Shown here piece by piece: positions 12,846-52,000 of a DNA stretch of 64,000 nucleotides (position 1 is its first letter; each line of letters starts with the position of its first letter). The stretch spans positions 47,396 to 111,395 of the forward strand of contig JAKCPI010027472.1 in assembly GCA_023213315.1 (NCBI GenBank). Direction: 5' to 3'. Source of the DNA: Euborellia annulipes (Eukaryota > Arthropoda > Insecta > Dermaptera > Anisolabididae). The position numbers and the translations under genes are program-made. Below the pieces are notes generated by a model. The model was not told where the DNA came from and searched no databases. It saw only the letters and a list, made by a program, of their open reading frames with translations.

Positions 12846-15800
12846 TTAAGAATTCTCATAAAATAAAACATAAGCTTCGCTCGAAACAAGGTTGGGGCTG
12901 CTTATGTTCGACACCCTGGAACAAATTAGAAAAAAATTTCAATTTTTACATGTAAAAAAAGAAATTATAATTCATATATAATTTGAGAAAATTAAAGTCA
13001 GAAAGTTGGACTTTTCATTTATTATTAAAAAAAAAAAAAAAAACCTAATAAAATTCAAAGACAATGTGGAGGAAGGCCGTAATACAGATTAAAGACGAAA
13101 TGAAAAAAGACTTCTTCGGCCCGAATTATTTATTTTTCCTCTGTCGACGTTTCGGGGACTAAAAGTCACCCATCTTCAGGACCTACATTACAAACAATAC
13201 ATATAATATGTATTGTAATTGTATATTTCCTGAGCCACCATCAGAGTTAATGCAAGGCTGCCATATATATATGTCCGCCATATATATATGCGCGTCCCTC
13301 TCAGTATAACGTCACAAGATGTCACCGAGTGGGGGGGAGATCACAACAACTTACATAACAACTGAAGGAGGCAGAGAAAATAATTTTTTAACACCTTTGT
13401 AAGTAAATTTATAATGTCTTTCTGTCTGTTGAGCGTGTTTGATGTGTGTTATATATTAAAAAAATAATAATAATAGTGATAATCCTGATTATATGTATTG
13501 TTTGTAATGTAGGTCCTGAAGATGGGTGACGTTTAGTCCCCGAAACGTCGACAGAGGAAAAATAAATAATTCGGGCCGATAGAAGTCTTGTTTCATTTCG
13601 TCTTTAATCTACTAAAATTAGTTTAAAATCTAAAAAGAACATCTTGCAATTAATTAAAAGAAGTTTACCTGGAATCGTTGTACGAGTTCCATTCTCCATT
13701 ATATGGATGTTTACACATGGCTGTGTAATGGCCGGAGAAGGGTGTCCCTGAATGATTAGCGATTCCATATAAATTATATCGGCAGGCTTCACCACGACTA
13801 GCTGCATAAGAGCTTAAGTCTAAACCCTTAATCGGAAAATCAATGGTTACATTTAATTTTCCTCTGAATCGCTCGTTGGGGCTGAAACGCTTAAGATCTG
13901 AAGATTCATTAAAGAAATATTTTAAATAATAACAGAGAAGAATTTTTATTATTATTACATTAGAATTGATATCTATGAAAACATACAATTAATATTTATT
14001 ATCAGACAAAAAAATTAGATAGTGTCGGGAGTTGAACCACGGATCTGCTGATTTATATTCGGCTTGCCCTACCACTAGACCAGACCACCTTTGTGAGAAT
14101 TTCTATTGAGAAATTCATCTACACTGCGCATCAAAAAAAAAAAAAAAAAAGGTAAACACTTTGTTTCTTCTTCAGAAGATCTTTTGTAATCTATCTTAAT
14201 GATACTGTAATGTATTTAATCATTTAATATGAAATATCTTATACATTTCTAAGTCAAATCCATATCATTTTAATATCGTATCATTGAGGTAGTTTAGAAC
14301 AAGTCTTCTTAAGAACTTAAGAAGAAACAAAATGTTACATTTTTTTGACGCGCAATGTAGAATGGTGAAATTTGTAATTTCGATATTTCTCACGATGAAA
14401 AAATTAGCGTGGTAATAAATTCAAATAGTGCTGTGTTAGTAGTAGGGCATACAAATAAAAAATTGGCAGATCCGCGGTTCGATGTCCGGTCGTCCGTACT
14501 TTTCAGTTCAGAAAAAAATAAAAATATAATTAAAAAAATGAAATTAATTTATGAATCAATTCTACTTATCAAATTAATTTTATAAAGTGTAAAGAATGTT
14601 TATAAAGGATACGTAAAACCAAAATCCTTGGAAAGCGTTGAATTGAAAAACTCTTAGTGCATTTTCTTCGGATTCTACATTTAGCGCAAGTCTGTAAAAA
14701 AGGCAAATGTTAGAAAAAAAATTAAAAACAAAAATTGTACACTCGGAGCCACAAGTGTTCGAGAATTGAGCCTAGAGGTTAGTCAACCAAACCAATATTT
14801 TAAAAATAAATAAATCATATCTAACTGAAGGAGCAAAGTGACTTTTAACAATACAAAGCATTTTGGTTGCCTAAGCTCAAGACTCCATTCTTGAGCACAT
14901 CAGGCGCATTGTGGCGCCGACAGGACAGTGTACAAAGCATTGAAAAATTTTTCAATCCCTTTTCCCATGAAATTCAACTTGAAAACGTACCGGTTTTTCA
15001 TCCCCATCTAAAATCTCTTCTTTAGTGAAATGGTCAAGACACTGTTGCAGGCGAATTTGGCCAGTTCTTGATGGTATTGGGAGAGAGAGATCCCAAAATG
15101 GGTCAAAGGTTACAGAGGTATGTCCACAATATGTACAACGCAGAGTTGACTTTAACTGACCAACAAAAATCTCGACAATTTTACTATTGTCCATGGCGAG
15201 GTATCTCTTCCAAGATTCAGTTGCTTTAGAATCATCACTAGAAAAAAAATCTCTATTCAAGGAAATGCAACTCATGAAGAATAATAAATTCGTACCTTAA
15301 AGAATCATCAATTTCAGTTACATTAGGTTTAGGGCGTTGAATTATACGATTTACATCTTCATGCAATCCTTCCAATAAATATCTCAAGAATTCTTGGGCA
15401 TCTTGTTGGTTATAACCCATGAATCGTGGTGCAAATCTTTGAATTTGGGTTTTTAGGCCAGTGGGTGTCACACATCGTGAGGAGAATCGAGAATTCGAAT
15501 TTGGTTCCCAGAGTTCGTTGATTACATTACTGAAAGCTGTGTGAATCAAAGAGAAAAAACATTTTATATTTTTTTTCCATTTTGTTAATAAGAAATAGAA
15601 AAACTAAAAAAAAGGATTCTATATATTTTTTTAAACATATATATATTGATTGTGCTGTTCCAGTTTTTTAGCCACCTAAAAATTTCTGAGAGAAATGCCA
15701 AATAATATTTTTGAAATTCAAATTTGGAAAATGATGATCCAATTTTTGGACCAACACTCCAAAAATTCCTACTTCCTTTCATTCCAAACATAGAAATTTT

Positions 15801-18793: not shown

Positions 18794-21700
18794 CTGAAAT
18801 AAATAAATAATTATAATGTAGTTTTTAAAATTAAACAAAAATCCATCAATAAAATAAATAAAGGAACGTTAGATTCATTCATTGAATTTTTTTCAACATT
18901 TATAATTTATAAATTTATACATTATAAATATGAAATTATATATATATCATCGGGTTCATGAAGAAAATTCATATAATATTCATATGTCATTTGAGATTAA
19001 AGTTTTGTCTTTTAATAAAATTACAATTCACAGGCTTTGTCTCAAAGTGAAACATAATATAAATCAGAAGTAGGTATAATAATAATAAAAATAATTTAAT
19101 TTGTTCCTTGAGACATACAAGTATGTATGGAACTCGTTAAATACATCAAATATAACAGAATTCACTGACTTCCCCACCCCTGGTCATAATATAAATAAAT
19201 CATTTAATTGAGTTTGAGCATCTCACATTCCACCATTTTGACTTATATTTGACGAATCTCTTAAAAACTATCCCATCTCGCTTGAAATTGAAAAATTTTT
19301 TTATAAAATTTATATTAAAATAATATTTTTATTTGTCGATTAAATAAATGAAATAATAAATACAATGTATTACATAAAATAAATAAAATGATTAATTTTA
19401 ATCGCGATATTTTATTTAATAATAAAATTTATTATTAAATAAATTTTTTTTTTTTTAAGTATTTGAGAATCAAATTTTATATTCAACTATTTGATTCGCT
19501 TTTCCTCCTCTAACACAATATTCATAATTTATAAAAAAAAAATATAATATACAAAATTTTGAATTAGTATTTTCAATTAGAAAAACAAAATATAAGAGTA
19601 CCTCATTTTTTGGAGTTTGTGATTCCGTTAATTCGTTTTGACAATTACGTATAGAATCGCTTAAATGAATAAGAAAGTCTTGGTAAAATATGTCAAAAAA
19701 GTTATTAGGGCGTTTTTTTGACATGATGGCGAAAGAGTAGGTAAAATTTTGTGAAGGAAATTTTAAGGGAGCCTGGTCGTATTTGGAGAAGCAAAGAAAC
19801 AGAGAAGCCAATTGCTCTTTAGTAGAGAAGACTAACGCTTTCGAAACCCACTCTGATGGAGAATTTGAAAATTAAATAAAATTTTTTTAATATTTACAAA
19901 ATTATAATTAAAAATGTTTTAAATAAGTATTGGAAAATAGATAAAGCGTTTTTATATATTTAAGCAAAAAGCAAATTATTATTTAAACTTAAAAGAAAAA
20001 AAAATTAATTTTTACTTTTTTTTTAAAGGAAGTTTGCCATCAGCCATTTTTGACACCTATATAATTTGATTCTAATAAGCTTAAATAAAAGAAAAATATA
20101 TATATATATATATATATATAAATTTATAACAAAATAATAATATAAACAATTTTAAATATGCAATTATTTTTATTTTTAAGTTTTAGAAAAAATTTATAAA
20201 TTTAAACAATTAAATAATAATCAAATAAAAACGGGGTCTAAATGGCGTCCGATGAAAAAAAAAAAAAAAAAAAACATTTATCTGAATGAACAATATATAA
20301 TTTTATAAAATTAAATGAAAAATATACCTCTTCTGAATAATCATGTGGAGAAAAGATTCCATCATTTTCTAATATGAGATAATATTCATAATAGGGGTCG
20401 GTTATACTACGGCAGAAATCCTCGAAAAATCTTTCAAACAAACTAGGTTTTTTGTCAAGCATGATTCAGAGGCGTACCGAGGCAGTTGGGGGCCTGGGGC
20501 GGAACTAGAAGAGGGGGCCTTATATTGAATTTTTTTTTTTTTGGGGGGGGTGGTCATCTTTAAATATCCCTCTCCTCCATACACAAAAACATTTTTAAAA
20601 TACCGTATATCCCTGAACCCCAAGGGGTAATTTTCATTAAATTTTCTTTTTTTTATCTAAATTTTCCCATTTTTACTTGAGCCCCAAGGGCCCTGGGACC
20701 TCTCAAAGAGAAATTTTCATTAAATTTTCTTTTTTTTATCTAAATTTTCCCATTTTTACTTGAGCCCCAAGGACCCCGAGGCCTTTCAAAGAGAAATTTT
20801 CATTAAATTTTCTTTTTTTTTATCTAAATTTTCCCATTTTTACTTGAGCCCCAAGGGCCCCGGGGCCTCTCAAAGAGAAATTTTCAATAAATTTTGTTTT
20901 TTTTATCTAAATTTTCCCATTTTTACTTGAGCCCCAAGGGCCCCGGGGCCTCTCAAAGACAAATTTTCAATAAATTTTGTTTTTTTTATCCAAATTTTCC
21001 CATTTTTACTTGAGCCCCAAGGGCCCGGGGCCTCTCAAAGAGAAATTTTCAATAAATTTTGTTTTTTTTTTATCTAAATTTTCCCATTTTTACTTGAGCC
21101 CTGAGGGCCCCGGGGCCTCTCAAAGAGAAATTTTCATTAAATTTTGTTTTTACTTGAGCCCTGAGGGTCTCGGGGGCCTCTCAAAGGGAAATTTTTATTA
21201 AATTTTCTTTTTTTTATCTAAATTTTCCCATTTTTACTTGAGCCCTGAGGGCCCCGGAGCCTTTCAAAGGGAAATTTTCATTAAATTTTTTTTTATAAAT
21301 ATATGGGGGCCTATGCCGGCTCGGGGCCTGGGGCGGACCGCCCCCTCGCCCCCCCTCGGTACGCCACTGCATGATTAAATTTTAAATACTTAAATTTAGC
21401 CAAGATGCTAACCAAAACTTTTGTGTGTGTGTGAAAATGTTGAAGTCAAACGAAATTTGTATGAGAAGCGAATACTAAGATATAAGATACTACACCATTA
21501 TTTATTTTAGTGGCCAATTTTAGAACTAAATTTAAAAAAAAAAATCATAAATTAAATGAAAAGAAAGAAATATGATTAAAATTTAGTTTTAAAAAAATAT
21601 TACATTTTAAATAATATAGTATCCGGTACAAAAAATAAAAGTAAAAATCTGTTATAATAATATTGAAATGACTGGAAAAAATACTGGATATGAAAAAGCA

Positions 21701-24700
21701 GGCAGCCAAAAATAAAAAACACTCGATACTCTGTGATCATGATGTTTCGGGTAAAATTTATTCAATCATCTTCAGTGAACAATTTTAATGAGAGAGAGTT
21801 AAGTCAGTATAATTAATTATACATTGATTATTTTGATAATATAATATAGGTTTGAAAATTTTTTTAATACGTTTTAATATTAAAAAAAAACGTTTTTAAA
21901 TATTAAAAAAATTTTCAAAATTTTTTTAATACTTTTAACAAGACATGTGAGTGTTTTTTATTGATGAGGCCAAACATCCCATGGCCCCCGGGAATCGAAC
22001 CCAGGATCTCCGCCTTTCCGGGGCATAGGCGTGCTATCCATTGCACCAGGCCACCGGACCCTCGACCTGCACCAATAAAACTCACTTCCCCTTATATGCA
22101 GTTAGTCGCGCAAGTTACTAACTCGTAACGAAAACGAGAAAAATATTTAGCTTTTTTTAATACGTTTTAATATTAAAAAAAAAAAAACGTTTTTAAATAT
22201 TAAAAAAATTTTGAAAATTTTTTTAATACGTTTTAATATTAAATATTAAAAAAAAAAAACGTTTTTAAATATTAAAAAAATTTTCAAACCTGTATTTATC
22301 ATCATATTATCAAAATAGAATACATAGAATCATAGGCGCGGAACTGGGGGCAGTTCCCCCCGGCATCCTCTAGGGGGGACAGGGGGGCAAAATTTTTCTT
22401 TATTTCATTTATTTTAAAAATGATATATTTTTACTCTTGAAAAATAAAATCTTCTAAATTAAAAAAATTAAAAGAGTAAGAAATTCATTTTTTTCCAGAT
22501 TTTTTTCAAAAATTTTTGATAAAATCAGTAGCAAATTTTTTAAAATTTTAATTTTATTAAAATTGTGATTTTATTTAAAATTTTTAAAGTTTTATAGTAG
22601 ATTTGTTTTTGTTTTAGTTTTATACTATTTGAACATGTTAAATTATTTTAATTTTAAAAAAAATTTTTGCCCCCCTGATTAAATCGTCCCCTGCATAGAA
22701 TAGCCAAATGTCATCTATGTATAATTATACTGACTTCATTAAAACTGTTCACAAAAGATATGGTGAATAAATTTTAAATTTTTTCTTGAATAAATTTTAC
22801 CCGAAACGTCTAAACGTTCACAGAGTGTTTTTTTATTATCGGCTGCCTGCATTTTTATTTCCTTCTGAAAAATATGTTAGTGTACAGAAAAGAAAATACA
22901 TACGGAGAAAATTTTATTTTTAATTTAAAATGTTTTAGGTTTCAATAAATTTGCAATATAAAGAAAAAAAAAGTTCTTTCTAAATACCTGGTGTTGATTA
23001 TTTAATTTATTAATTATGAAAAAATAAATAAAAATAGAGATTAGGTACCTCGGGTGCAATGATTGGCCTGCGAGGCATGAAAGTGCCACCATTTTCATGG
23101 AACATATACCTCACATCTGAGGGGTCATTTAAGCTCAAGATAAAATCTTCGAAAAACTTGTCGAAATAATTCGGTAATTTATCATCCCCATCCATGTTGA
23201 ACTAAAATTTTAAATATTTTTTTTTTGTTTTTTTTTTTTATTTAGAAATATCGAACGTAAGGAAGCAGCAGCGACCTCTAATACTCAATTGTGCTGAAGT
23301 TAAATGATAAGTTGACAAACTCCTTTATTTTTGTAATTCGGACTCGTGACATATTTGTGAACTAATTAATTGTTAATTTCATTATTTTTTTTTCTGTTTG
23401 ACAGCTAATTAAAAATAATTTGTCTTAAATGTCAGTACAACCTATATTTTCAAATTTTGAATAAATTTCTATTTGTGCTGTTTTTTGGGTAAAAAAAAAT
23501 CCAGAATTTTTAGAATTATAGGTCATTGGAAGTCAATATGGCGACTATATGACATTATATAATTATATTTGTTTGTTTGTTTTTTAGTTATTTAAAAGCA
23601 CGAAAAATTTTGTAATAAAATTTTCTTTAAAATTCCAGTCGAATTAAATTTTATACATAAAATGTGTTGAATGAACTGTCAGTGTCAAGAGTTGATAAAC
23701 AAGAAATGCGATCAGTGGCGTCATTTCAACTTTTAATTTTTTTTTTGGGTGGGGGGGGGCAAAAATTTTTTTCTTAAAATTTCCTTACAAATGGGTACTC
23801 AAATTTGACCAAAATATATTTAATTTTGTACAGTTTATATACTCGTAGATATATTTTGAAATATTTTATTTAAAGAATAATATAAAATTTTTTAAAAATC
23901 AGAGCCCTTGGGGTGGGGGGGTAATGCCCCCCCCCCAAATGACGCCACTGAATTTGACTACATTTATTTAAAAATAATTTTTTATAAAATTTAATAAAAA
24001 AAAAAAAACATTTTTATTACATTTAGATATTATTATTGTGTTTTTCTATAACAAAATATAAATAAAAAAAAATTATTTTGTTAAAATTGTTTTAATATAT
24101 TCATTAATTAGATGTTTTATTATAACCTTCGACGGACTTCGCGATTAGTCAGGAATGATCCGCTCCCTTCCAAAACAAACAGGATTACGTCCATGGGCGT
24201 AACTAGGGAATTTGGCTGGGGGGGGACATGGGACCAGTCATCCTCCGGGGGGCGGGGGCCCCCTAGTTACGCCCATGGGCCGCACACGTCACAAGCTTTA
24301 AGCCGGCCCTGAAACTAGTTCGTCCTCAGTGCTTTAGGATAAAGTAGTTGTGAAAAAATTAATAACTCAAAAAGTTATAGGAATTAGAGATGAAAATAAT
24401 TTTCCTCTAATCCCTAGAAGGTTCTCTTTGAGCATATAAAATTTTTCAACCGGAATAAACTCCAGCTTCCAGCTTAGGACAAAATTGTTTATCCTAGGAC
24501 AAACTAGTTCATCCTAAAAACAGTTTGGTCTTTAGCATATATAAATAATTACTATTATAAACAAAGAGACAGTATATAATTTATTATTAATTTTACGTAT
24601 ATATCTATAATAATGTAGTGCTGCATAATTAGTAGTATTTTTCCTGTCGTAAACTGTTTTAAAATAAAATAAAATAAAAAGCAAACGTGTGGGGTCGTAG

Positions 24701-27700
24701 GACCCCCGGCAGGAACAAAGTTCCTCACGCCTTTTCTTCAACTCAGAATATAATTTAATATGAATATTATTTAAATAGACGGAAAGCCCGCCTTCGGCGT
24801 CTAGCCAGGGAGCTGCACCCGCTGGAACCTCTTGCTCGGCGAGAATTTCCCGCCTACGGTAGTTAGAAGGAAATAAAGAGAAGGAGAAGGTGGGCGTGGC
24901 CTCGCCAAGACTTCGGCTAATCTCGCCTTCCTCCGCCGTCGCTCGGGCGCTGGGAATGCATTTTTGTTTGGAACGCATTTTTGTTAGGTTACATTTTCTC
25001 CCAATTCACCCTGCGTAAGCCGCGTTAAAGAACTTCGTTCCAAAAAAATAAAGCGAAAAAGGCGTCATATCGGACAGGGCCTAGGGCGCAGTCGAACCTA
25101 AATCCGAGGCTTCTGGGGAGAGGGTGTTTAAGCCCTTTTGATTGCAGAAGTGGTTTCAACTTAGTAGTGGATAAAACAGTTACTTTATCCAAAATTTCTA
25201 CTCTAGTGCGCCCATTTGATAGAGCAAATAATATTTCACTTGAGTGACTTTTGCATATTTTTAAAATTCATAATCTTACATATATATATATATATATTCA
25301 TTTAATTAATACATATTAAAATGTTAGTCAAAAAAATTTCTAAGTTAAAATAAAAAAAAATTTCAATTTAAAAAAAAAAATTGCTCGGTTTGTTATTTCA
25401 AAGCCGGAATTAAAAAAAAAAAAAAAATTGATGTCAGGGCTTACCTCGCTTTTATTTTCGTCACTTGTTTTATTTGAAGATGAACTTTCATCAGAGCTTG
25501 ATTCATAAGAATCCTCGGTGGGTTCTAAAATTTTAGCTCTGTTTTCTTGTTTAGTATTTAATGAATTATCCAGACTCTTGTTTAATTGACTTAATGACAA
25601 ATTTTTATTGTTATTAAATTCGTCGTCTCCTGGGTGTTGAATCTATTTGCAGTTAAAATGTTAAAAAGCAGCATTAGCCTTACTTAATAAGCATTCAAAA
25701 GCGCAAGTGTTATTTAAAAAAAAAAAAAAATGAAATACAAATATATATTTTGAAAGAAGATATACAATTAAAAGAGAATCATTTGGAGAGATTTAGGCTT
25801 TCTTTTTAAATTTAATTATAATAATAAAAGATCTTGCGGTTTGGTAAAATTTTAAATTGTTTTTTTTTTTTTTTTTTTTACTTTTATTTACCTATATATA
25901 TATATATGTTAATATATAATATATAGAGAGAAAAGTAATGGATTTATGTCAACAATTCGATTTTTGATGGAAATACACATTTTGATTCCTAAAAAACCTG
26001 TCAACAAAATATCTCAAGAACGAAAATAACTAGATGGTTGAAATTTTATATTTAATTTAAATACCTCCCTGGCTCGTCACATGAATCTTTTGAACAAAAT
26101 CGGCCAAAAAGTACTAGTACTTTACTGATGTACTTGTTTAGTTTTTTTTTTCCGATTTTTTCAAAATTAATTCCAACAATTTTGATTAAAATTCATAAAT
26201 CAATTATTTTTTAGATGATCTTTAAAATGTATTAATATATTTTCAATTTTCCCTCAAAGAACACTTTACTCTTGTACTTCATAGAAAGTCCATGGTAACA
26301 AAATATAAAATTTTTCCGTGTTTATTATCAATTTTGGACACTGAATTTTAAAACTAAATATATGTGAACATTCTGGTGTGATAAGCACAGAATAGAACTT
26401 CCAATTGCCGAAAGTAAGAGAAAGTTGTGTGCTATGCGACCAGACACACCAGATTTTCATTATCCCCTCCACCCCTTCCTTCTGCTGGGCCATGGAGGCC
26501 AGGGAATTCACGCCAGTTAAGACTTTATCAACATGCCTTTGAAAATTATAATTTATAATATATTTATAGTTATAATTTCAAATCAATAAAATATATGAAC
26601 TATATCGTTTATAATTTAAACACTACATATTATACAATATATAATATTTTGGAGTTTAGGCTTTCACAGTTGTTATCATTAAAGAACTATGTTTTCGGTT
26701 TAAATGTTGTTTGTTTGTAAAAATTACAACGTTTTAGCCATTCATTCTCTAGCCTTCTTCAGGTACAATTCAGTAGGTAAGATTACAAAGGTTATTACAT
26801 CTGTGACAATAAAGATGAGATCGTCACAGATGTAATAACCTTTGTAATCTTTTCTACTGAATTGTACCTGAAGAAGGCTACAGAATGAATGGCTGAAACG
26901 TTGTAATTTTTACAAACAAACAACAGTTAAACCGAAAACAAAATTATTTTATTATCAGTATATAATAGGGTAATCAATGTTTTTTCATGTCTACTTTATT
27001 GTTTTTATTATGGCTGGTAAATTTAAAAAATTCTTCCGAGTCAGATCTGAGAAGAGGGGGAGAAAAGTATGGTAGGTAAAGTTCTAGAACGAAAATGATC
27101 CCAGTATTTTTTTTATTTTTATATTCTTTCAAAATATATAAAAATGATTGTGAATTTATGACTAGTGTGTATTTATTTTAATAGAAAATATCCAAACATT
27201 TAGTGTGTGAGTGTTTAAATATGAATATCTAAAAGCTACTTACAAATGTTCTTGTTCTAGTGGATGATGAGAGACTTGAATTTGTTGATGATAACGAGCG
27301 TGATTTTAAATAATTTTCACAAGAATATCTGGATACCAAATCCGAGACATCTTGCGCTGATGATATATTATTGTATCGTTTTACTGATGTACTGCTCGAA
27401 CTAAAATAGTAAAAGATATATTAATAAATGAATATTTTTTTCTAACAAAGATAAAATATTTTTTAAATATGATTTTTATAACTAAAAAGAATTAATTATT
27501 ATAGAAATGTTGAATTTCATGTATTTTATGAAACTGTTTCAATCGAATTAAAAAAAAAATTATGAAAGTTGATGCGAGGAAAGGGCAGAAAGATTTTGGC
27601 TTGTGGTACTTTAAAGATGAATTTCTAACAGAAAAAAGGTGGAAAATAATAAGTAGGAACCGACCGAAGTTTCGGTTTCGGCTAATTTCAAAAAAAATCT

Positions 27701-39329: not shown

Positions 39330-40130
39330 TATAATTTCTTGGGTTAAGTCGTGTTGGTTGTTGAGATTTACTCGACGTTTCAGCTTTCCTTTTGAAGGTA
39401 TTTTTAGAAATAGGGAGTAATTATGTAGGTGGTTTGTTTTCGATATCACAGTCTTGCTGGGGGAGTCTTTAAATAAAAACAATGCGATTTGGAGGGCTGC
39501 ATTATAAAATACTTAGTATGCAATTTTATCAGTGAGTTTTATGGGTATGGTATACAAAGTAAAAACTCGTTTGTATTATTATTTTAATTTATTCAAATTT
39601 GAGGATTTCACTAACTCATACATCAATATTAACTATAATACTGTATTTGTTGTTGATAAACGAAGCAACTGAGTAAGTTACTTATCAAAGAGGATTTTGA
39701 CTTTATAAATTTCATGTTGGGAAAGCTGCTTTCGCAAAGAAACGTGCCTCCCATCATTGAGCCCAGTGTTAGGCCTATGTTTCGCAAGTTAGGGTATCGT
39801 TCTTCAGGCAGCAATTTGAAAAAGTCCAATCCAGTTTCAGTTCTTCCTTCCACTATCATAAATTTTAGTAAAAGTCTAATAGTTTTAATGTGTCCTATCC
39901 AGGCAAAAATAGCTGTTGGGAATTTTCCAAAATAGGGATAATATGTGTACATTTAAAGACCTCATGTTGGACAGTCCTGATCTAAGACATTCACTGACTA
40001 GACATGGGGACCAGAAAACAATCCACCTTCACCATTATAAACCCTCACTCATGAAAATGTCCTCAAAAGGAGAGATTAAATCTCTACAACCAACTCAAAC
40101 ATCCAGTCTCAGGGGCCTTCAGGTATATAT
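39330..40130. mobile_element. Inverted-arm element around a hAT transposase relic
   Basis: Arms at 39345-39450 and 40010-40110 are diverged inverted copies (GAAAACAA(A/T)CCACCT, CTTCAAAAGGA, TAAATCTC(A/T)ACAACCAAC). The left arm has GCTGAAACGTCGAG on the minus strand. The transposase piece lies between. Confidence 0.5.
39629..39952 (-). pseudogene. hAT-family transposase C-terminal fragment
   Basis: A 107-codon open stretch without an obvious start. LDFFKLLPEERYPNLRNIGL, then GGTFLCESSFPNMKFIKSKSS, matches the C-terminal dimerisation region of hAT transposases and their ZBED-like domesticated relatives (CES-F-x-M-K-x-I-KSK pattern). No zinc finger or catalytic part was found nearby, so it is a relic. 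Confidence 0.65.
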
Positions 40131-46026: not shown

Positions 46027-49000
46027 CTGTAAAAAAAATATTTAATAATATAATTAAATAAAAAAAAAAAATTGTTTTCAAATTGTAATCAAATACAAAA
46101 CCTGGCTTTGGCTGTTTTCCTCTGAAGGAATAATATCTATATTTTCTTCATAATCATCATTTTCTTCATCCTCATCATCTATTAAAGAATTATCATTACA
46201 AAGATCTTCGGGCTCTTCATCTTCGTCTTCATCTTCTTCGTCCTCATTTTCTTCCTCCCCTTCTTCTCTGTCTGTAATCCCAATCATGTCTTCTTCTAAA
46301 TTGTCTAATATAATTTCATGATTCTCTTCATTTTCTTCATTTTCTTCTGTACTTATCATCTTTTCGAATGCTAACATTAATTCATCACCTTTATTTTCTA
46401 TGTGCTCATGATTAGTTCTTTCCTCCAATTGAATCTCTGGTTGTTCACTAATTTCTTTATTCTCTGAATTTCTCCTACTTTTTGACCGTTTATTTTTTTT
46501 CTCTACTTGAACTTCTATAACCTCTATTATCCCTTCTTCAAATTCATCTTTATTTTCGATCTCTTCTTCTTTACTTTCCTCTTCATCTGTGTCTTGAATA
46601 GTTCCTAGTTCTCCTGGAACTCTTACTCTTTCTAGTTCCTCGTTTTCCTTTTCTATGTTCTCGGCCATATTGTTAATATCAGGTGGTTCAGTAGGGGCTT
46701 CAAAAGAACCTGTAGAAGATAATGAATCGTTCATTTTATTAAAAGTCTTAAATTTATCTATAATAATTTTCTTTTTAGTGCAGTTTATTTGAATAAAAAA
46801 AAAAAAATAACACATTTTTACCTGAAAACTTATTATGCAAATGAAAAACTTCTACTTCTGCTTCTTCTAAATTTTCATAAAATTTTATTTTTGGATCTAC
46901 AGATTTCAAGGCATCTTCGAATAAATACTCTACAGTTACAGGAAATGGATTTTCTGGACACCATATCGGGTTGCTGTGTTTGAAAAGATAATAATGCTGA
47001 AAAAGTGAAAATAAAATATTAAATATATATATTTATATTATTAATATATTATTAATAATACCAATCAACTTACTTGGAAAAATACAATGAAATAAAGAAG
47101 TTTTTTCAATGAAGAGGAATGACTGAAATATCTCCCAGATGTTTCTAAAAGGAAGCAGACTAATCGTACTCTAAATAAGCTCTCAGGAGGATCATAAGTT
47201 GAAGGATTGTCGTAACTCAAGCTAACTCCAAACGTTATAAGAATATAAAGAAGCTTTAAAACAAAAAAAAAAATCCAATTAAAATAAACATTAATAAAAT
47301 AACGAGTAGAGATTATAGGGTGAGACAGAAATATCTGAAGGTTTTGCCAATGTAATAACTTTTTTATTTTGGAAAAAAAATTCTATGCATTTTCCTTACT
47401 AACTATTAAAGAAAAGTTTTAAACACAATTTATTTATGTATAAAAAAAAAATGTCTTTTAAATATCTTCCATTCCGAGGGCGTAGCGTCAAATAGTGCGG
47501 GCGGAAGGGGGGATGGTGGTCAATTTTATAAATTAGGGCAATAATTATAAGCATGCTTCTTGATGTTATGACTTGACTTGAGTAATGTGTGAATGTAAAT
47601 GGAAGATATTTAAGAAAAATTATTTTCCATATCTAAAATTCGTTCTTAAAATATTTTTATGATATAAATAGAAATGGCAAAATAAAGTTAATACACTTGC
47701 AAACCGTCAGATTTTTAACAAGCACTTTTAGTAAGGCTCTATAAAGATGAATATTCGCAGCCGCCATTTTTAGTCCAATTTTCGAGCTGTCACCATGATT
47801 ATAGCTTAAAAAGTATCACATTCTGGTTTTTTTTTTTTCAAGTGTTGAAGGAATTGTTATTAAATCACAACATTTTTTTGTTTACGCAAAAGAACATAAG
47901 CGTTTAAAAATTTTAGTACACCAAATGAAAATTTAGTAATGCTTTAGAATTTAGGATTATATTTTAAATTTTTTAAACGAAAAGTAATTATTACAAACTT
48001 CTGGGAAAAATAGACAAGCTTATTAAAGTTTTGGAAATCTGTATATCTTCGTTTTCCTGTTCTATTGCTACAATTGATAGCAGAACAGACCTGCATTTTT
48101 TATTTTTTAAATAACTCGCTAGTTTTTAAAAAAATAATGCAGGATACAGAAAATATATTATCATTTATAATGTTTTCAGCACAAAAAATATAAATAATTA
48201 TTTATGAACTTAACCTCATACTTATAATTTTCGGTGTCTGAATTTGTTCGTTTGAAAAAATTCTTTACAATCTGGCAACTTTTAAATATTTTTTATAACA
48301 CTTAAAAATGATTTTTTTTACAAATAATTGAAAGAAACAGAATATAAATCGCCGATTCTGACGTGTTGGAAAACACAGTTCCTGATTTCATTTGGACCCA
48401 AAATGGCAGCTGCGAATATCTCTCTATTCAGAGCTCTACTTTTAGTAGCCTGTCAAGAAAATAATTTTTAAAAGTGAAAGATTCTGTTGTGATTTTTCCT
48501 TGCTTTAATTCTTTATTTTTCATTATTTTATTGTTTTAAGCTTTTAAAATAATAAATTGTTTTCAAACCGTAATGAGATCGTTAGTCTCCAACATCCTAT
48601 AATTGTAAAGCTCGCCAATATATCTGATCATAGCAGTTCGCCTTTGATTATGCTTGGGATGATTAATTTCTAAACCAAGTTTGATGTCTTCGAAAACATT
48701 ATCTACTACCATTATTCCAATAGTTTCCTTAAAAACAAAGAACAAATTTAATAAAATCAGATAATAATAATAATAATAAAAATATTTACTTACATAATGT
48801 AGAGCAATTACAGCAGTCAAACCAGCAAGATATTTAATATGAAAATATTTCACTTCATATGCTTTTGAAAGACAATCAACAATAAAATCTTGAACTTCTG
48901 GATCATTTAAATTTAATTTAATAATGAAATTAAAGATATCATTAGAATTTGTTTTGTTGAGATCATAACGTATTGAGTTACGAATATAAGAAAAAATGGC

Positions 49001-52000
49001 TGGTTCATCTTGAATTTCTTTTTTCTGAATAACCGGGGGAAGTACAAAGAAATATGCATTTTCAATCATAGTTACATGTCGAGAATCAAGAGCCAGAACA
49101 CTTTTTTTTCTCATCATTAGTTCCTAAAATATATATATAAAGATATAATTAAAAAGAAGAGACTTTTTGAAAAATAAATATAATTACGAGAAATATGTCC
49201 ATTCGTTGACATGTTAAAGGATGACGATATAAATAAAGTCCACAACTTTCAATTAAATTTGTGCACATTTCAATATGATGATGTTCAAAATCATTTAAAA
49301 GTGACTTTATACAGTAGAGAACCTCTGGTTTAGGATAGATGTTAAATTTCACTAATTCGCCAATAAATCGAACTACTTTAACTTTCGATTCTATGTTCAT
49401 TTGATCCTGAAATAAAAAATTCAAATCTATATTAAAGTGTATTTTAAGTGAAATTTTCTTTCCTTCCTCTCTTATGGGAATATGTAAATAAAATTTGTTA
49501 TTTTCATGCATTAGACAAGTGGTAAATATTAAAGCTTTTGTGGTTTGTATTATTATGAAAGTTTTTAATTATAGACCACATTTTGTATTAATTATTTATT
49601 AAAAATATAATTCCTGTACAACGTTTCGACTGTTTATTCTGCAGCCATTTTCAAGTACTGAACACTTGCTCCGACTCAAGTGAACTAACATCTAAGAGAC
49701 CGGTACTTGCATTTTATATACAACGAAGTCAGCGCCATCTACAGTCATTCCTACGAAGTTAGAAGCTGAAGTTTATGTCTAACTTCATTGGAATTACTGT
49801 AAATGGTGCTGACGTCGTTGTATATAAAATGCACAAACTTCAGTTTCTAACTTGATAGGAATGAATGTAGATCCCTTTGAGGTTATTTCACTTGAGTCAG
49901 CGCAGTGTTCAGTACTTGAAAACGACTGCAGAATAAGCAGTCGAAACGTTGTACAGGAATTATATTTTTAATAAATAATTAATACAAAATGTGGTCTATA
50001 ATTAAAAACTCCCATAATAAGATGCAAATAGCTTCTAATCAGTCAGTCTTTTAAAATAATTACACTGAGCAGCATCATAGAAATAAATGAAAGTCCTAGA
50101 TTGATTACATGTGATTCACTTTAAAGAATTGTCGAGGCCTGGATGGAAAAAAAAAGAATTTTTATATATTCCCGAGGGCCATGTTTGCTTCCACTGATCT
50201 AGAGGTTAATATATAATACAAATGAAAAAATAGCTGGCTGGCCTATTTTTTCTTTTCCAACTTGATTAAAAAATTACAAATAATCAGAAAATTAAAATAC
50301 CTTTTTCTTTATATGGAATTTAAAGTCATTTTTTAGGAGATTACATAAATCAGTGCCTATATCAGGTTGAATGGGATGAATGGTGGCAACAAATCTTGAA
50401 TATAAAGGCAGTAGATCTAAACGAATTCTCGGAACATTGAATAATAATCTAAAATAAAAAAATACGGATTAAAAATTACAAAATATACCCAAAAGAATAA
50501 ATTTATTAAAAAATAATATTTTACTTAGTGAGTTTCTTTCTATTTTGCTTAGTATTCAAATTTAATATAAAATCTACAACCATTGAATCTATTGTAATTC
50601 TGCTTACAGCATTCGGCAAATCATTGCTAAAGCTCTCCCATAATTGTTTATTGCTTGCGTTTGATGATTTTTCAGAATCATCTGTAAAATAAAATCAACA
50701 TTAATATAGTCTCTCTCTTATAAACTTTTATTTGTGATCTCATAATAAAAAAAAAAATAGTAAACCATCGAAATCATTGTCCACGCATCGTTCATCAATT
50801 ACTAATTCCTCTATCAATTCCTGGTCCAATTCTTCTTCATTTATTACCTAAAGAATAATAATGAAATTGTTTATCATATGTTATATAAGAAAAACCAATA
50901 CTTTCTCTCTCTATATATTAACATATATATAGAGGTAAGAGAAAGTAAAAATGAAATAAAAATAACTGACGTCTTCATCATGGTTTTCTTGTTTGATTCC
51001 AATAACTCCTGGAATGTAATCTTTTAAATCAAGCAAATCTTCATAGAAATGTTTTGCATCTTCATCTTCCCAGAGATCATCACTTTTACTACAGGCATAA
51101 TAATACTCTGATTTTGAGGCGCAACACTCATTGGTTGATTCATCTAAAAAAAAATAAGAATATATATTTAACAGATAGATGATTGTACGCAGAGCATAAA
51201 ATATGAAAGAAGAGGAAAAACCCAATAGGGTTTATTAAAGCTTTTGTGGTTTGTATTATTATAATGGGAGTTTTTAATTATAGATATAGATATTATATTT
51301 TGTTATTAATTATTTATTAAAAATATAAATACAGTACAACGTTCGACTGCTTATACAGCAGTCATTTTAAAGTACTCTGCACTTGCTCCGACTCAAGTGA
51401 ACTAACCTTTAAGGGACCATTACGTGCATTTTATATACAACGAGGAAAGCGCCATCTACAGTCATTGAAGTTAGACACAAATTTTCGCGTCGTCTACACT
51501 CATTCCCATGAAGTTAGACAATATCATCAAAGCAAGTGCTTACATGTTTTTTATGTAAACACTTGCTTTGTTGTCTAATTTCATAGAAATAACTGTAGAT
51601 GGCGCTGACGTCTTTGCATATAAAATGCTCGTAATGGTCCCTTAGAGGTTAGTTCACTTAAGTCGGAGCAAGTGCACAGTACTATATATTAATATTTATT
51701 TATTATAAATAAGAAAAAGATAATAATTTTAACTACTAACCATCAAAAGTTAAATCAGGAAGATCTTCATTTAGATATTCGGCAAATGTTTCCGTATTAG
51801 TAAGTAATCTTTGGTAAGATAAAACCATTTGGTCCAATTTACTCTTTCTTTCTGCGCTAAGTTCTCCTTTTGTTTGGAGTATTTTTTTATTCTGCTTTTT
51901 GAATATGCATAACTCATTATGTTCCTTGAAATAAATAATATAAATAAATTTATTATCACACTTTTGTAATCATAAATGTTAAAATTTTTAAATATTAAAA

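Follow-up and report, generated by a model that had tools for sequence, protein, structure and literature searches.

Duplicated small exons as probable alternative translation starts in the USP2 gene of the dermapteran Euborellia annulipes

The USP2-type deubiquitinase gene of Euborellia annulipes carries three small exons between its long-form exons and its shared exons (here named exon A, B and C), which are probably alternative translation-start exons of this one gene. They were found in a stretch of 64,000 nucleotides (the window, to which all positions refer). The window forms the end of contig JAKCPI010027472.1 (47396-111395 of 111395) of the genome assembly GCA_023213315.1, which comprises 903 Mb in 25,949 contigs. 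As judged from the sequence, exons A and B are paralogous beyond doubt and exon C is a probable further member of the same family.

All three exons are located on the minus strand. Exon A (23049-23195, MDGDDKLPNYFDKFFEDF) encodes 49 amino acids and ends at the donor GAG/gtacct, exon B (20328-20462, MLDKKPSLFERFFEDF) encodes 45 amino acids with the donor GAG/gtatat, and exon C (19602-19724, MSKKRPNNFFDIFYQDF) encodes 41 amino acids with the donor GAG/gtactc. Each of them is initiated by ATG, is open throughout and ends with GAG/GTA in phase 0, in frame with the exon at 18793-18689 and from there through to the stop codon at 12846. The exon coordinates, ATG starts and phase-0 GAG/GT ends of an initial annotation of this DNA were exact. 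The peptide motif described there was slightly off as written, although a related pattern is present. When aligned from the first methionine the peptides share K-x-P-x(2,3)-F-x-x-F-[FY]-x-D-F, to which C fits once a gap of one residue is allowed. A and B have a second block in common, EN-[GD]-G-x-F-x-P, which is absent from C. The guanine plus cytosine (GC) content of exons A, B and C was 0.41, 0.33 and 0.29, respectively, while two stretches of intron had values of 0.20 and 0.23. The 147 nucleotides upstream of exon C had a GC content of 0.39, compared to 0.20 in the intron after it.

The gene that harbors these exons is of the arthropod USP2 type and spans 31223-12846 on the minus strand, with four long-form exons followed by eight shared exons that encode a complete UCH domain. 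The long-form exons, which begin with the ATG of MPYSSGSSGVLSLVPSYKMPVPS, are located at 31223-31063, 29663-29496, 27400-27244 and 25642-25445. The donor of the last one (GAG/GTAAGC) is in phase 0 and thus in the same phase as those of A, B and C, as had been annotated initially. Shared exon 2 (18793-18689, starting with EEPPFPIAMCLMDRVDEPTP) consists of 35 codons (105 nucleotides) and is in phase 0 at both ends. Shared exons 3-9 (16701-16612, 16356-16230, 15536-15296, 15237-14991, 14691-14613, 13897-13669 and 12915-12846) contain the UCH catalytic domain up to the stop, and exons 2-9 read through in one frame. The product matched Pfam UCH with an expectation value (E) of 8.9e-71. In the PDB, human USP2 was the best match (E 9.5e-121), followed by USP21 (9.3e-94) and USP15 (1.2e-92), which bears out the initial assignment to USP2. 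Judged by similarity, the catalytic domain is closer to USP2 than to USP8, USP15 or USP21.

Protein homologues were compared as the best 120 of 2825 USP2-like matches. These were mostly from insects, with termites, Orthoptera and dragonflies leading at 66-77% identity, and the top named match among those listed was an insect USP2 from a termite, 77% identical across 77% of the query length. A tree built from the catalytic part of listed matches placed the USP2 of the window on a long branch together with two sequences from dragonflies and damselflies and one further sequence (support 0.945 among the insects included). Its shortest distances in this tree were to a katydid and to dragonflies alike. 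By these comparisons the gene is an orthologue of arthropod USP2. The first 46 residues of the long form gave a weak match with a termite protein, the long form of Cryptotermes USP2 (P0002; 46% over 54 aligned amino acids, E 0.003), and the N-termini of the homologues showed no convincing match when compared with the window. Shared exon 2 had no convincing counterpart among the 120 proteins. This exon is symmetric and could be skipped in the long form, as the junction from 25445 to 16701 stays in frame.

The relationship of the three exons was assessed by a survey of both strands of the window for every ATG followed by an open phase-0 frame of 38-55 codons with G/GT at its end. This gave 21 distinct starts including those of A, B and C. 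Out of 209 non-overlapping pairs, A-B, A-C and B-C ranked first, second and third with scores of 95, 55 and 38, followed by the next pair with 35. Of 5000 residue shuffles for each pair, none scored as high as A-B (best shuffle 57), one as high as A-C and 18 as high as B-C. Searched against the complete genome assembly, exon B gave no match other than itself and exon A (E 5.8e-4). The initial annotation had treated all three exons as paralogs; this is clear for A and B and probable for A and C, whereas the similarity between B and C is marginal.

The differences between the exons are of the kind expected for coding sequences. Within 37 aligned codons, A and B differed at 10, 14 and 22 of the first, second and third positions, respectively, and A and C at 4, 5 and 9 positions within 16 codons and at 1, 1 and 2 positions within another 3 codons. 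The excess at third positions over first and second positions was significant for A-B (Fisher's test, p 0.008) and for A-B pooled with A-C (p 0.0008). We also simulated neutral divergence by mutating exon A without constraint to the observed number of differences, using two base compositions and 5000 runs. Under neither composition did any of the 5000 runs reach the A-B protein score of 95, and only 8.5% and 12.4% of the runs, respectively, remained without a stop codon. Taken together, the pattern is real, non-random and coding, and the differences between A and B speak against neutral substitution patterns. Beyond the exons, blastn gave just AT-rich matches that were not collinear with them, a few of which scored like the exon match itself. 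Since the flanks lack collinear similarity, the duplication is old, and selection has preserved the likeness in the coding part alone.

Short peptides with a high content of F, D and K could resemble each other by chance in an AT-rich intron, and the B-C score of 38 is indeed equalled elsewhere in the window. However, that all three frames are only look-alikes is hardly credible given the score of A-B compared to its best shuffle, the top three ranks among the 209 pairs, the absence of any neutral run with an equal score and the fact that exon A is the sole other match of exon B in 903 Mb. For A and B, chance resemblance was rejected on the combined grounds of shuffles, pair ranking, neutral simulation and the search of the genome. 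Pfam gave no match for exons A and C. A match of exon B to an integrase (E 0.093) reached 12.9 of the 26 bits needed; it was below the curated cut-off and was taken as chance.

Based on these data we propose that one ancestral start exon was duplicated in tandem, giving rise to A, B and C, and that these would be retained by constraint at the protein level. Phase-0 splicing of A, B or C to shared exon 2 is predicted to result in a short USP2 of 437-445 residues (437, 441 and 445 counting the stop). Such short forms would keep the whole catalytic domain and lack the serine-rich N-terminus of the long form. The start peptide would fold as a short amphipathic, phenylalanine-rich helix that might dock the enzyme on a membrane or on a partner protein, and A, B and C might differ in this address or in when and where they are expressed. 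The regulation of exon B may in addition have been reset by an insertion that is now located directly before its ATG. We consider the use of A, B and C as alternative starts likely, with a confidence that is held down by the kinship of C, the present use of B and the predicted nature of the splicing. The observations that weigh against it are given in the following for each of these aspects and for the helix.

The kinship of exon C relies mainly on the A-C similarity, the first 24 residues of C, and the location and phase of this exon. When all six frames of the window were scanned with peptide B, unrelated places scored up to 42, so that the B-C score is unexceptional, and the search of the genome with exon B did not recover exon C. 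Together with the missing second block these points could mean that A and B are true duplicates and C is an unrelated start exon which resembles them by chance. We regard this as unlikely, since only one of 5000 shuffles reached the A-C score, the differences within the 16 aligned codons are mostly at third positions, and the common pattern is equally placed after the ATG. In the intron after exon C, at about 19164-19072, a short dispersed repeat was observed that has at least 38 further places in the same genome with 81-94% identity; this count is a lower bound from 40 scored out of 88 candidates.

Concerning the splicing, the donors of all three exons lack a G at position +5 when compared by eye. 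Several constitutive donors of the same gene lack it likewise. A common promoter of A, B and C was not visible, as the flanks showed only AT-rich, non-collinear matches. Within the window the E-box CACGTG was limited to two sites, 32886 and 33183, which precede the gene model and are not close to any of the three exons. The sequence in front of each ATG has A at position -3 and C at position -1 in all three exons. Exon B has an in-frame TGA one codon 5' of its ATG with no AG between them, and can therefore only be a start exon. In exon A an in-frame TAG is located two codons before the ATG and overlaps a possible acceptor AG six nucleotides upstream, and exon C is open upstream for 49 codons with seven AGs.

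It is conceivable that A and C, and B as well until the insertion occurred, act as mutually exclusive internal exons following the exon that ends at 25445, so that the helix would lie within a long USP2. That exon shares phase 0 with them, exon A offers the in-frame AG at 23202 (ttttag, TTCAAC, ATG) and three of the AGs upstream of C are in frame. Yet the candidate acceptor of A is preceded by an A-rich stretch, the alignment of all three exons starts with M, with gaps confined to the region near the start and to the tail, and the TGA of exon B has no acceptor between it and the ATG. We therefore consider internal use as a general explanation to be distinctly improbable. An upstream non-coding exon, or internal use of A or C individually, may nevertheless occur. 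Start use would be the simplest common reading of A, B and C, for which we regard first coding exon as the safe term.

The present use of exon B may be affected by a mobile-element-like insertion of about 0.9 kb (20463-21368, minus strand) directly before it, which the initial annotation had not mentioned. The insertion has near-terminal inverted arms (20461-20482 and 21354-21375) that are 86% complementary and extend into the flanks, as well as tandem units of 83 base pairs (bp) at 20629-21151 which bear GGCCCCGGGGCC. A 7-bp duplication, AATCATG, is present on both flanks, and the copy on the exon side provides the ATG of exon B. Exon B is thereby parted from its former adjacent upstream sequence. 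The 910 nucleotides ahead of it contain 16 ATGs, and unless transcription begins inside the insertion, exon B may be silent or translated only poorly. Possibly only A, or A and C, are in use, and exon B is a relic severed from its promoter that is still open owing to the recency of the event. The insertion ends at the duplicated ATG, and a reading frame would survive such a recent hit. On the other hand, exon B is intact, its GT donor is in the required phase and it differs from A in a coding manner, although these differences partly predate the insertion. In our view the disuse of exon B is a serious alternative, albeit not the one we favor.

The predicted helix is best seen in A and B. Shuffled sequences had a hydrophobic moment (at 100 degrees) as high as the observed one in 20 of 5000 cases for A and in 4 of 5000 for B, counts that are favored to be low because the segment was picked as the best of 8 starts. 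For C, 753 of 5000 shuffles were as high and its helix is not significantly amphipathic. AlphaFold2 modeled exon A, aligned with B and C as three rows, with a helix at residues 10-23 of A and a predicted local distance difference test (pLDDT) score of 84 for the block 11-20. The mean pLDDT of 63.7 and the predicted template modeling score of 0.34 denote low confidence outside of this helix. Solved structures resembling exon A were not found. The hydrophobicity peaks of A, B and C (Kyte-Doolittle mean over 19 residues) were 0.15, -0.11 and 0.27, without a transmembrane-like stretch. A transmembrane-type start exon was also looked for in this gene among 16 frames of at least 15 codons from ATG to GT[AG] between 16.7 and 32 kb, and nothing convincing was obtained. 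A frame at 21740 was weakly hydrophobic (mean 1.59) and by eye lies within repeat-like sequence.

A docking function of the start peptide is suggested by analogy with the N-termini of mammalian USP2. According to one study, mouse USP2-45 binds NHERF4 and clathrin heavy chain whereas USP2-69 does not, and the authors place the binding in the 49 N-terminal residues (PMC4710524). The same study describes the short USP2 of mammals as clock-controlled and linked to membrane proteins by its N-terminus. A review states that N-terminal extensions of USP2 bind specific proteins and set localization and substrate access (PMC13113990).

Short forms of USP2 with unrelated start peptides are present in other insects as well, a point that was likewise absent from the initial annotation. 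Among the best 120 of the 2825 matches, 17 had fewer than 150 residues before the recognisable UCH start, and 13 of these 17 begin with M; five of the 120 lacked the UCH start motif and were left unclassed. Like the predicted products of A, B and C, these forms consist of a short start peptide and the UCH domain, without the long serine-rich part. In contrast to A, B and C, five of the 17 (P0001, P0017, P0047, P0107 and P0110) start with a segment of transmembrane type (mean Kyte-Doolittle value 1.65-2.78 in 19 residues), which is not known to have been described before. A pattern of the type F-x-x-F-[FY]-x-[DE]-F ahead of the UCH domain was found in none of the 120. It might be speculated that the short USP2, partly transmembrane-anchored in other insects, was replaced here by the duplication of start exons with an amphipathic helix and that a mobile element took over the regulation of one member; we put this forward as a doubtful extension.

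Searches of the protein database with residues 1-84 of isoform A (6 candidates) and with an alignment of the three N-termini plus exons 2 and 3 (4645 candidates, limited by length and common 5-residue words) gave no match at E 10 or better. These negative results say little on the age of the array, since the nearest USP2 in the database is 77% identical over the aligned part, a distance so great that short and fast-changing start peptides would escape detection. The array may be specific to this lineage or more widespread.

Alternative N-termini on one catalytic domain are known from vertebrate USP2 (USP2a/USP2-69 and USP2b/USP2-45). For the human protein four isoforms are given in UniProt, and the available part of PMC13113990 does not mention duplicated related start exons. 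The orthologue in the insect Drosophila, Usp2 (CG14619), acts on Imd at the proteasome (PMC4140012) and is clock-controlled (PMC4710524), and paralogous start exons are not mentioned in the accessible portions of either paper. First exons that are tandem paralogs and share one constant exon set, with lineage-specific exon duplication, have been described for UGT1, GCNT2 and the clustered protocadherins (PMC1885805; PMC3325998). As in those clusters, all of A, B and C fit one constant exon in one phase. However, the known clusters are from vertebrates and their variable exons encode large domains, while the exons found here have 41-49 codons and belong to a deubiquitinase, and separate promoters for them are hypothetical. 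Narrow word searches of open-licence papers gave no report of duplicated related USP2 start exons.

If the proposed use of the exons is true, a deubiquitinase would have diversified its targeting via the duplication of a tiny start exon and not via gene duplication, and K-x-P...F-x-x-F-[FY]-x-D-F would name the candidate residues. With its three start peptides, the single catalytic domain would also offer a clean natural experiment in substrate choice by the start peptide. The insertion would in addition be an event open to dating in which a mobile element hit a start codon precisely.

Two further features were observed on the minus strand of the window. A frame at 39629-39952 looks by eye like the C-terminal end of a hAT-type transposase and had no Pfam match at E 0.01. 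A second gene, at 48563-49123 with neighboring exons to about 45 kb, contains a MIF4G domain (E 2.1e-16); with its acidic exon at 46078-46851 it appears UPF2-like by eye, which is our assumption.

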